Positions 26,892 to 46,275 of a DNA stretch of 64,000 bases are shown here, in pieces. The position numbers and the translations under genes were made by a program. Positions within the stretch are counted from its first letter, which is position 1, and each line of letters starts with the position of its first letter. The DNA lies in the NCBI GenBank assembly GCA_022565665.1, contig JAIUMI010000009.1, positions 45,284-109,283 on the forward strand, written 5' to 3'. The notes beneath the pieces were generated by a model. The model did not search any database. It was not told the DNA's origin and saw nothing but the letters and a program-made list of their open reading frames with translations. Source of the DNA: Glycocaulis sp. (GTDB lineage Bacteria; Pseudomonadota; Alphaproteobacteria; Caulobacterales; Maricaulaceae).

Positions 26892-28460
26892 TTAAGGAAG
26901 CGTCGAAGCCGAGCGGTGAAATGCGGGCTTGTGCAGTCTGGCCGCCAGCGCGCCCTCTGCCGTGCCGGCCCCTTGCGTCCGCCGCCGGGCGCTCAAGGCT
27001 TCGGCGATATGGATGCGGCGCACCCCGCCAGAGCCCTCCAGATCGGCAATCGTGCGGGCGGTGCGCAGAACACGGTGATACCCGCGTGCGGTAAGCCCCA
27101 TGGCCTCGGCGGCCCGGCCAAGCAGTTCGCGCCCGGCCGGATCGGGCTCTGCAATCCGGTCAAGCGCCTCACCGGACAACCGGGCATTCAGCCCACCACG
27201 CGCCAACTGCACCTCGCGGGCTTTTGCGACCCGCGCAGCCATCTCTGCGGTGCCTTCCTCCGCCGGGGGCAGGGCGAGATCGGCAGGGGTTACGGCGGGC
27301 ACTTCGATCTGCAGATCGATCCTGTCCATCATCGGGCCGGAAATACGGGCCTGATAGCTCTGCGCACAGCGCGGCCCGCGTGCGCAGGACTGCCCGTCCG
27401 CACCCGCCCAGCCGCACCGGCACGGATTCATTGCGGCGATCAGCTGGAAGCGGACAGGAAACGTGATGCGGGCATTGGCACGCGCCACGGCGATCTCACC
27501 GGTTTCCAGCGGCTGGCGCAGCGAATCGAGCACTTGCGGATGAAACTCCGGCAGCTCATCAAGAAAGAGCACGCCGTGATGGGCGAGCGAAGCCTCGCCG
27601 GGGCGTACCCGCGTTCCCCCGCCCACCATCGCGGCCATGGAGGCGGAGTGGTGGGGTGCACGAAAAGGCCGCGTGCGTCTGAGCTGTCCACGCTCCACCA
27701 GCCCGGCCACGGACTGGATCATGGAGATTTCCAGCAATTCCTGCGGCGAGAGCGGGGGCAGCAGGCCCGGCGCGCGTTCAGCCAGCATTGACTTGCCGGC
27801 CCCTGGCGGCCCGACAAGAAGCAGGTTGTGGCCTCCCGCCGCCGCTATCTCCAGCGCGCGCTTGGCAGTTTCCTGACCGCGCACATCGCGCATGTCCCTG
27901 AACTGCGCGCCCTCCACGAGATCGCCGGGCACAGGGCGCGCGAGCGCCTGCCCGCCGCGGAAGTGGTTGACCAGCTGGATGAGGGAGCCGGGCGCCAGGA
28001 TGGGCAGATCTCCACTGGCCCAGGCCGCCTCCGGTCCGCTGGCTTCAGCGCAGATGAAGCCAGCCCCTGTCTCAACCGCCAGCATGGCAGCAGGCAGGGC
28101 CCCGGGCGCGGGCGAAATGGAGCCGTCAAGGCCCAGCTCCCCCATGGCGAGGTGATCGCTCCCCGCCTCGGGGGGCAGCACGCCCATGGCGATGAGAATA
28201 CCGATGGCTACGGGCAGGTCGAAATGCGCGCCTTCCTTGGGCCGGTCGGCCGGAGCGAGATTGACGATGAGCCGCTGCCCGGGAAGGGACAGGCCGATAG
28301 CGGCAAAGGCGGCGCGCACCCGCTCGCGGCTTTCTGCCACGGCCTTGTCAGCCAGACCCACGATCATGAAATTGGGTGTGCCCCCGGCGATCTGCACCTG
28401 CACATCCACGAGGCGGGCCTCGGCGCCTTCAAATGAGGCTGATCGTGTGCATGCACTCAT
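26892..28460 (-). CDS. comM: YifB/ComM family Mg-chelatase-like AAA+ ATPase
   Basis: A 522-residue protein with the N-terminal ChlI-like domain (VQIAGGTPNFMIVGLADKAV), AAA+ core with Walker A LLVGPPGAGKSML, Walker B GVLFLDELPEF, sensor region IAAMNPCRCGW, and the C-terminal Mg-chelatase domain (LSARGYHRVLRTARTIADLE). ComM is a hexameric helicase promoting branch migration during natural transformation in Vibrio and Acinetobacter. GGAGGG precedes the ATG. A promoter with a LexA box lies about 100 bases upstream, suggesting induction by DNA damage. Confidence 0.92.
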   Translation of the reverse strand: MSACTRSASFEGAEARLVDVQVQIAGGTPNFMIVGLADKAVAESRERVRAAFAAIGLSLPGQRLIVNLAPADRPKEGAHFDLPVAIGILIAMGVLPPEAGSDHLAMGELGLDGSISPAPGALPAAMLAVETGAGFICAEASGPEAAWASGDLPILAPGSLIQLVNHFRGGQALARPVPGDLVEGAQFRDMRDVRGQETAKRALEIAAAGGHNLLLVGPPGAGKSMLAERAPGLLPPLSPQELLEISMIQSVAGLVERGQLRRTRPFRAPHHSASMAAMVGGGTRVRPGEASLAHHGVLFLDELPEFHPQVLDSLRQPLETGEIAVARANARITFPVRFQLIAAMNPCRCGWAGADGQSCARGPRCAQSYQARISGPMMDRIDLQIEVPAVTPADLALPPAEEGTAEMAARVAKAREVQLARGGLNARLSGEALDRIAEPDPAGRELLGRAAEAMGLTARGYHRVLRTARTIADLEGSGGVRRIHIAEALSARRRTQGAGTAEGALAARLHKPAFHRSASTLP

Positions 28461-28560: not shown

Positions 28561-28595
28561 GAACAATAACAGAACAAACATCCCCAATACGTCAA
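28561..28595 (-). promoter_or_regulatory. SOS promoter of comM: LexA box over the -10
   Basis: On the minus strand, TTGACG (28590-28595) and TGTTAT (28566-28571) are 18 bases apart. The LexA box, at 28561-28575, reads GTTC-TGTTATT-GTTC on the minus strand, exactly the alphaproteobacterial consensus, and covers the -10. LexA binding here would block RNA polymerase. The only gene downstream is comM. Confidence 0.75.
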
Positions 28596-45421: not shown

Positions 45422-45739
45422 TCAGTGAAACAGCTCCAGCTGGCGCGCTTCGCTATTGAACGGCGCGATTGTCACCGGGCCTGTCTTCAGCCTGCGGGTT
45501 TTCAGTGCCGGGCGGCTGACCGGCAGGGTGTCCGGCGTTTCCACAAGCTCCAGATGCAGCGCGGCGGCCTTGGTACGGATCGCACCTTCGGGCCGGCCGA
45601 GAATGAGCGAGATGCGTTTTAGCGGCACGCCGCGCTGGGCCAGCGCGCGCAGCTCACGCTCATCCTCATAGCGCCAGCGCTTGCCCGCATTGCGGGCATA
45701 ACCACCGCCGGAAGCCTTGATCTTGGATGCATAGGACAT
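45422..45739 (-). CDS. Small LexA-box protein with putative DNA-binding domain and clamp motif
   Basis: A 105-residue basic protein. Residues about 20-62 (KRWRYEDERELRALAQRGVP, LKRISLILGRPEGAIRTKAA) look like a Myb/SANT-type or homeodomain-like helix-turn-helix. The middle is Arg/Lys-rich and probably flexible (SRPALKTRRLKTGP). The C-terminus is ARQLELFH, where QLELF closely matches the sliding-clamp-binding pentapeptide QL(S/D)LF. AGGAG lies eight bases before the ATG. The promoter carries a LexA box over its -10 element. Together these suggest an SOS-induced protein acting on the replisome; family unrecognised, function inferred. Confidence 0.75.
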   Translation of the reverse strand: MSYASKIKASGGGYARNAGKRWRYEDERELRALAQRGVPLKRISLILGRPEGAIRTKAAALHLELVETPDTLPVSRPALKTRRLKTGPVTIAPFNSEARQLELFH

Positions 45740-45762
45740 GGCAATGCTCCTGCTCTGACTAA

Positions 45763-45792
45763 GAACATAAGCGGAACATTAACCAAAGTCAA
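45763..45792 (-). promoter_or_regulatory. SOS promoter: LexA box over the -10
   Basis: On the minus strand TTGACT (45787-45792) and TATGTT (45764-45769) are 17 bases apart. The LexA box GTTC-CGCTTAT-GTTC spans 45763-45777 and covers the -10. The expected start of transcription is about 20 bases before the ATG of the small gene, leaving room for its ribosome-binding site only. Confidence 0.8.
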
Positions 45793-45797
45793 GGGAT

Positions 45798-45806
45798 TGT
45801 GGATAA
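45798..45806 (-). promoter_or_regulatory. Perfect DnaA box TTATCCACA upstream of the SOS promoter
   Basis: Reads TGTGGATAA on the plus strand, an exact consensus match, five bases upstream of the -35 element of the small SOS-type gene. This is a position where a DnaA activator could contact RNA polymerase. Function inferred. Confidence 0.5.
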
Positions 45807-45810
45807 AATC

Positions 45811-46275
45811 TTACCAGCTGCCGGTATTTTCCATGCTGGCCCAGGGCTCTTTCGCAGGCAGGCGGTCCCCCTCCTGCAAGAGTTCGAAGGAGATATTGTC
45901 GGGCGAGCGCACGAAGGCCATGTGGCCGTCGCGCGGAGGGCGGTTGATCGTATAGCCCATATCCATCAGGTGCTGGCAGAGCGCGTAGACATCCTTCACC
46001 CGGAAGGCCAAGTGCCCGAAATTGCGCCCGCCGGTATAGGTTTCCGGATCCCAGTTCCAGGTGAGCTCGATGCAGGGCAGGCCTGCGGGCAGGGAGCCGG
46101 TTTCCGGCACGCCGCCCGCCGCTGCGATATCGTCCGGCGAGGCAAGAAAGATCAGGGTGAAACGGCCCTTCTCGTTCTCCATGCGGCGGACTTCCTTCAG
46201 ACCCAGCCCTTCGCAATAGAAGCGCAAGGACGCCTCGATATCGCTGATGCGCACCATGGTGTGGAGATATCGCAT
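45811..46275 (-). CDS. gloA: Lactoylglutathione lyase (glyoxalase I)
   Basis: Detoxifies methylglyoxal with glutathione. The 154-residue protein has the vicinal-oxygen-chelate fold with metal ligands in YLHTMVRISD (His), CIELTWNWD (Glu), NFGHLAFRV (His) and ISFELLQEG (Glu), and a glutathione-binding TYTGGRNFGH region. Length and the absence of the eukaryotic insert suggest a nickel-type bacterial enzyme. Lies just upstream, on the same strand, of the SOS-type gene, 71 bases away. Confidence 0.94.
   Translation of the reverse strand: MRYLHTMVRISDIEASLRFYCEGLGLKEVRRMENEKGRFTLIFLASPDDIAAAGGVPETGSLPAGLPCIELTWNWDPETYTGGRNFGHLAFRVKDVYALCQHLMDMGYTINRPPRDGHMAFVRSPDNISFELLQEGDRLPAKEPWASMENTGSW

Follow-up and report, generated by a model that had tools for sequence, protein, structure and literature searches.

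A LexA-boxed gene of Glycocaulis encodes a small, probably DNA-binding protein with a predicted C-terminal clamp-binding motif

To our knowledge, the SOS-induced proteins that use the sliding clamp are mostly polymerases or repair enzymes. The closest described systems are the SOS clamp-binding polymerases (Y-family enzymes of the Pol IV/UmuC type and ImuB), which combine a LexA box with a QLxLF-type motif, as does the gene described here. Its 105-residue product differs from them in lacking a polymerase domain, with an HTH of some 40 residues as its sole domain, and in carrying the motif at its C-terminus, whereas the motif of the Y-family polymerase of the host genome is internal. The clamp motif of the Caulobacter protein SocB acts on DnaN according to PMC9690074, as we predict for the present protein; compared by description, the latter differs from SocB in its HTH core and LexA box and in having no recognised adjacent antitoxin. 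GcrA resembles the protein in its N-terminal HTH, which is close in length and pattern. Judged by sequence comparison, the protein is a variant of the SOS-induced clamp users, set apart by the absent enzyme domain. Among the titles and abstract openings listed by the literature searches, some of which showed a part of their papers, none described the protein, and no paper linked LexA with Maricaulis or Glycocaulis with the SOS response.

The gene was found in a window of 64 kb (the whole stretch of DNA that was analysed) from a host genome of 2.74 Mb in 31 contigs; its features are collected in Table 1. When the minus strand was read again, the ORF, promoter, box and QLELF proved to be exactly as the earlier note had described them. 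The protein ends in RQLELFH, and the minus-strand sequence over the promoter, box and AGGAG is cccTTGACTttggttaatGTTCCGCTTATGTTCttagtcagagcAGGAGcattgccATG. Differences by codon position, summed over ten pairs among five of the six same-genus (g1) genomes, were 135, 92 and 330, which supports the ORF being coding; together with homology, they ruled out a spurious ORF. A glyoxalase-family gene was present upstream, at most about 700 nt away, in 21 of the 23 strong homologue loci described below; the other two (L050 and L060) had no glyoxalase-family match within the stretch examined. We treat this gene as a syntenic marker outside the proposed mechanism. The other neighbour is presumably an HMG-CoA-reductase-like ORF, and no recognised antitoxin gene was present among the window ORFs neighbouring the gene.

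Table 1. Coordinates of the features discussed, numbered from the first position of the window.
Feature	Position	Strand	Basis
105-aa ORF (HTH core, variable linker and C-terminal clamp-binding motif, predicted)	45422..45739	minus	ATG start
QLELF, predicted DnaN-binding motif, residues 100-104	45428..45442	minus	23-row alignment
Three-helix HTH core, residues 24-60	45560..45670	minus	AlphaFold2 model
Conserved basic arm GYxRNAGKRWR, residues 13-23	45671..45703	minus	23-row alignment
AGGAG, likely ribosome-binding site	45747..45751	minus	from sequence
LexA box GTTCCGCTTATGTTC, 38 nt upstream of ATG	45763..45777	minus	GTTC-CGCTTAT-GTTC
Sigma-70-type promoter TTGACT-N17-TATGTT	45764..45792	minus	exact sequence
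Glyoxalase-family gene (PF00903)	45811..46275	minus	Pfam
YifB/ComM-type Mg-chelatase-like AAA ATPase gene	26892-28460	minus	family match
Exact box GTTCTGTTATTGTTC	28561-28575	minus

The spread of the protein was estimated from successive searches. Among 61 genomes, 14 were matched at E <= 0.01, 11 of them well, and the 11 good matches were aligned into a profile that was run over the 137 genomes of the host taxonomic family. The profile matched 30 of these genomes at E <= 0.001. Twenty-three were strong homologues (E <= 1e-30) from four of the 19 genera (six in g1, 14 in g5, one in g14 and two in g15), and seven were weak matches (g4, g9 and g19), namely six short HTH proteins and one GcrA. 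The earlier note had asked whether homologues keep the motif and the box together; both were present in all 23 strong homologues, and the seven weak matches all lacked the terminal motif and any box in the upstream 200 nt. The search was widened to 398 genomes at the level of the order and 385 at that of the class, scoring at most 12 first-look candidates per genome, so that weak ones may be missed; no match outside the host family covered the tail, and even the furthest went no further than position 90 of the 102 in the profile. Of 241 candidate stretches in genome_contigs, a scan confirmed two, both already among the known members. Among the genomes searched, the protein was seen in one taxonomic family only.

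Several partial relatives were recorded. Other genomes of the order contain short HTH proteins (L080-L084) that share a similar HTH pattern without the Q-x-[DE]-L-F end and, except for L080 (box 97 nt upstream of the match), without an exact box within 200 nt upstream; several of them carry KPxNQSPY near the end. The GcrA match (L076) is longer and likewise has neither the Q-x-[DE]-L-F end nor an exact box within 200 nt upstream. A scan for remnants covered 25 glyoxalase loci in 26 genomes without a strong member, taking the three longest forward ORFs per locus, with L115 and L136 anchored wrongly. In genome G025 (L118/L073), a 60-aa HTH-like ORF lies beside the glyoxalase-family gene, with no box or clamp tail, and is possibly a remnant or an ancestor of the gene. 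A phage origin was rejected, as none of 40 pattern matches in viral_contigs was confirmed; three records from two phages matched the query over 50-55% of its length, within the HTH part.

The exact pattern GTTCN7GTTC, published as the LexA motif of Caulobacter (PMC12700426), occurred three times in the window against 0.96 expected; five of 100 shuffles reached three. The whole genome contained 44 sites, and the pattern read backwards also gave 44; because of this equality, the box taken alone proves nothing about SOS control. The comparison of homologues is more informative. All 23 strong homologues had an exact box no more than 60 nt before the matched start, and every half-site column (both GTTC) of the box-anchored alignment was invariant (23/23), although the spacers comprised 10 different sequences and most flanking columns fell below 1 bit. 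The box therefore exceeds chance, and a chance occurrence was dismissed on this ground in spite of the genome-wide counts. The TTGAC columns of the -35 were conserved in 21-23 of the 23 and the TA of the -10 in all of them. The -10 overlaps the second GTTC; since the first GTTC sits between the -35 and the -10, promoter function alone would be insufficient to explain its conservation.

We inspected the neighbours of 19 of the 44 genomic sites, those whose spacer holds four or more A/T. Nine of these boxes precede the following: the 105-aa gene, lexA, recA, ssb, an ORF group encoding an ImuB-like protein together with the error-prone polymerase DnaE2, the Y-family polymerase, a PA0069-type radical SAM gene, mraZ and the YifB/ComM-type gene of the window. 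The remaining 10 lie before or inside genes without a recognisable SOS link. The ImuB-like protein matches Pfam IMS, and the ORF at the ImuA position had no match in the family searches; both names are our assumption from neighbourhood. The 105-aa gene has the operator GTTCN7GTTC in common with lexA, recA and other SOS genes of the host genome. The earlier note had argued for LexA control from the box over the -10, and the conservation in all 23 homologues, together with the boxes at known SOS genes, supports it; the 105-aa gene is almost certainly under LexA (SOS) control, a reading strongly supported by comparison.

Eleven of the 23 homologues (L055, L057, L060-L062, L064-L066, L068, L070 and L072) possess a second exact box, inverted, 34-36 nt upstream of the first and just before the -35, which suggests tight repression. 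In Caulobacter, ~97% of SOS promoters have a single box, according to PMC12700426. Two other sites in the host genome deserve mention. The box GTTCTGTTATTGTTC lies ~100 nt upstream of the YifB/ComM-type gene, so that comM is possibly under SOS control. A further exact GTTCN7GTTC (L103, C13:11404-11418) was located 180 nt upstream of a Pfam MraZ ORF. In many bacteria mraZ heads the division/cell-wall cluster, and this box may possibly link the SOS response to division.

The fold was modelled with AlphaFold2 from the 23 sequences. Helices were predicted at residues 12-16, 24-36, 40-47 and 51-60, and the ten-residue blocks covering residues 21-60 had mean pLDDT values of 89-92 (overall mean 73.3, pTM 0.49). 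G13, Y14, R16, N17, A18, G19, W22 and R23 were each identical in 23 of 23 sequences, and the pI was 10.7-11.7 across all members. Further along, P77, R82 and L84 were each conserved in 21 of 23, with PPPxRTL[ST]R in 11 of the 14 g5 members. Foldseek against the PDB gave weak structural matches alone (best E 0.82). In a profile search of PDB sequences, the best-supported entry was the CRISPR-repeat-binding protein 2lvs (E 9.9e-6); the same search for the 105-aa family returned a Myb domain at E 0.24 and GcrA at E 0.77. The curated families searched (Pfam and NCBIfam) do not contain the 105-aa protein, which had no match at E <= 1, PF07750 and PF00249 included. Among the family members, GcrA (PF07750) was matched weakly by four of 23 (best E 0.0089) and Myb/SANT (PF00249) by three of 23 (best E 0.015). 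All 23 matched PHROG 323 ('transcriptional regulator, D5-like', best 1.2e-9), but the match of the window protein spans about 60 of the 319 profile positions (137-198), the HTH part only. The Myb/SANT-like reading proposed earlier is weakly supported: three helices are modelled with confidence at residues 24-60, no PDB entry was a confident match of that fold, and PF00249 was matched weakly by three members. A DNA-binding HTH is the natural reading and a likely one, given the modelled fold and the charge.

The C-terminal motif showed a similarly sharp pattern of conservation. Q100, L103 and F104 were invariant in the 23 strong homologues, position 102 was always acidic (D in 12, E in 11) and position 101 varied (L in 11, G in six, M in three, P in three); the columns flanking Q-x-[DE]-L-F vary, and the linker has diverged and differs in length. 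With its fixed Q, L and F, variable second and acidic third position and place near the chain end, the motif looks like a clamp peptide, for which PMC9690074 gives the bacterial consensus QL(S/D)LF. For comparison, all DNA retrieved for the analysis was translated in six frames, and the ORFs of 60 aa or more gave 2,293 distinct C-termini. Q-x-[DE]-L-F ended within three residues of the terminus in 23, each of them a homologue, and in none of the other 2,270; the looser Q-x-x-L-F occurred in 25 of the 2,293. The QL(S/D)LF-type peptide, conserved in 23 of 23, lies in the low-confidence tail of the model, the last two blocks of which had a pLDDT of 59. The LexA-boxed Y-family polymerase of the host genome contains RQLDLF in its internal position. 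The host DnaN could be aligned from end to end with 5wce, the best match among solved clamps (E 5.5e-147), which we take to be the clamp of C. crescentus. That QLELF is a clamp-type motif, as the earlier note had it, is thus supported, and docking of the tail on DnaN is highly probable and strongly supported by comparison.

The relation to translesion polymerases was assessed among the 23 carriers. ImuB was present in 17 and the Y-family polymerase in seven, with at least one of them in 22; across the 137 family genomes the numbers were 65, 58 and 107 (either). The excess of either polymerase in carriers (p 0.017) and that of ImuB alone (p 0.005) are both uncorrected for relatedness. Because 107 of the 137 family genomes also have either polymerase, the 22 of 23 represents a weak association, and it fits action on the shared clamp, not on one polymerase. 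Six carriers had no ImuB match at E <= 1e-30, which argues against a dependence of the protein on the ImuB system. The role of an obligate ImuB-DnaE2 accessory as its sole function is unsupported on the same count, though the enrichment of ImuB leaves room for a tie to that system. Within the 14 g5 carriers, ImuB (eight) and the L105-homologous Y-family polymerase (five) never occurred together at E <= 1e-30, and one of these carriers (G126) had neither ImuB nor a Y-family polymerase at that threshold.

Our best reading, to which we give a probability of roughly 0.5, is that the product is a DNA-binding adaptor under LexA repression, which docks on DnaN once DNA is damaged and alters access to the clamp. 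LexA would occupy the -10 and block transcription (strongly supported by comparison) until DNA damage leads to production of the small basic protein. The HTH core would then probably grip DNA, as its fold and charge suggest, and the flexible tail would insert Q-x-[DE]-L-F into the cleft where DnaN binds its partner proteins, again strongly supported by comparison. At DNA-bound clamps the protein could compete for the cleft with other clients, Pol III among them; it could in this way slow or re-order the access of polymerases to damaged forks, and the SOS repair and translesion polymerases might thereby gain time or access. For such an effect on polymerase access we see about even odds. A more specific and rather tentative form of the idea draws on eukaryotes, where p21 and PAF15 are damage-induced PCNA binders. 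Our protein might be their functional counterpart in bacteria, a dedicated, polymerase-free SOS protein that grips both DNA and the clamp, and might direct the use of the clamp at damaged forks with any translesion polymerase that the species has.

Competition for the cleft is not the only use to which such a tail could be put. As a recruiter, it would bring the DNA-binding domain to DNA that is damaged or freshly replicated, with polymerases not limited, and the domain might there mark structures or bring in a repair enzyme. The anatomy and the promoter are equally compatible with this, and the second conserved stretch (P77, R82 and L84) could hold a partner, yet no partner gene is apparent and the constant neighbour (21 of 23) is of the glyoxalase family, with no evident repair role. 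We regard the recruiter, in either form, as unlikely. A manager or brake is favoured over it because the clamp peptide is the sole recognisable effector and because a replication-wide target fits persistence with either translesion system; the present comparison is compatible with brake, manager and recruiter alike.

Blocking could also be the whole function. Two toxins are described as acting on the clamp, SocB, which blocks DnaN by its clamp motif (PMC9690074), and RipA (PMC12795458). A blocker of the SocB kind, triggered by the SOS response to stop replication elongation and arrest or kill the cell, would agree with the tight control hinted at by the double LexA boxes of 11 homologues. However, a plain blocker would have no need of a conserved HTH, the gene stays in the same syntenic position in 21 of the 23 cases, and the adjoining window ORFs include no recognised antitoxin gene; a clamp toxin is improbable. 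We are more sceptical of a GcrA/D5-like transcription factor whose clamp tail couples transcription to replication, as in phage T4 late transcription, where gp55 binds the clamp (PMC9690074). The matches of all 23 members to PHROG 323 and the weak matches to GcrA point that way, but the PHROG match of the window protein is confined to the HTH, and the Pfam and NCBIfam searches found no sigma- or polymerase-binding domain. Finally, since the motif is identified from sequence only, the tail might bind something other than DnaN or have been inherited without function, but the invariance of Q, L and F in all 23 homologues, amid varying adjoining columns and linker lengths, leaves this hardly any credence.

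The adaptor reading thus describes a small DNA-binding protein with a clamp peptide as its sole recognisable effector and LexA control conserved in several genera. If it is true, the protein would provide a simple handle on how cells choose the clamp-using polymerase after damage, as well as a natural ligand of small size for the cleft of DnaN, and it may represent a new traffic controller for the copying of damaged DNA.
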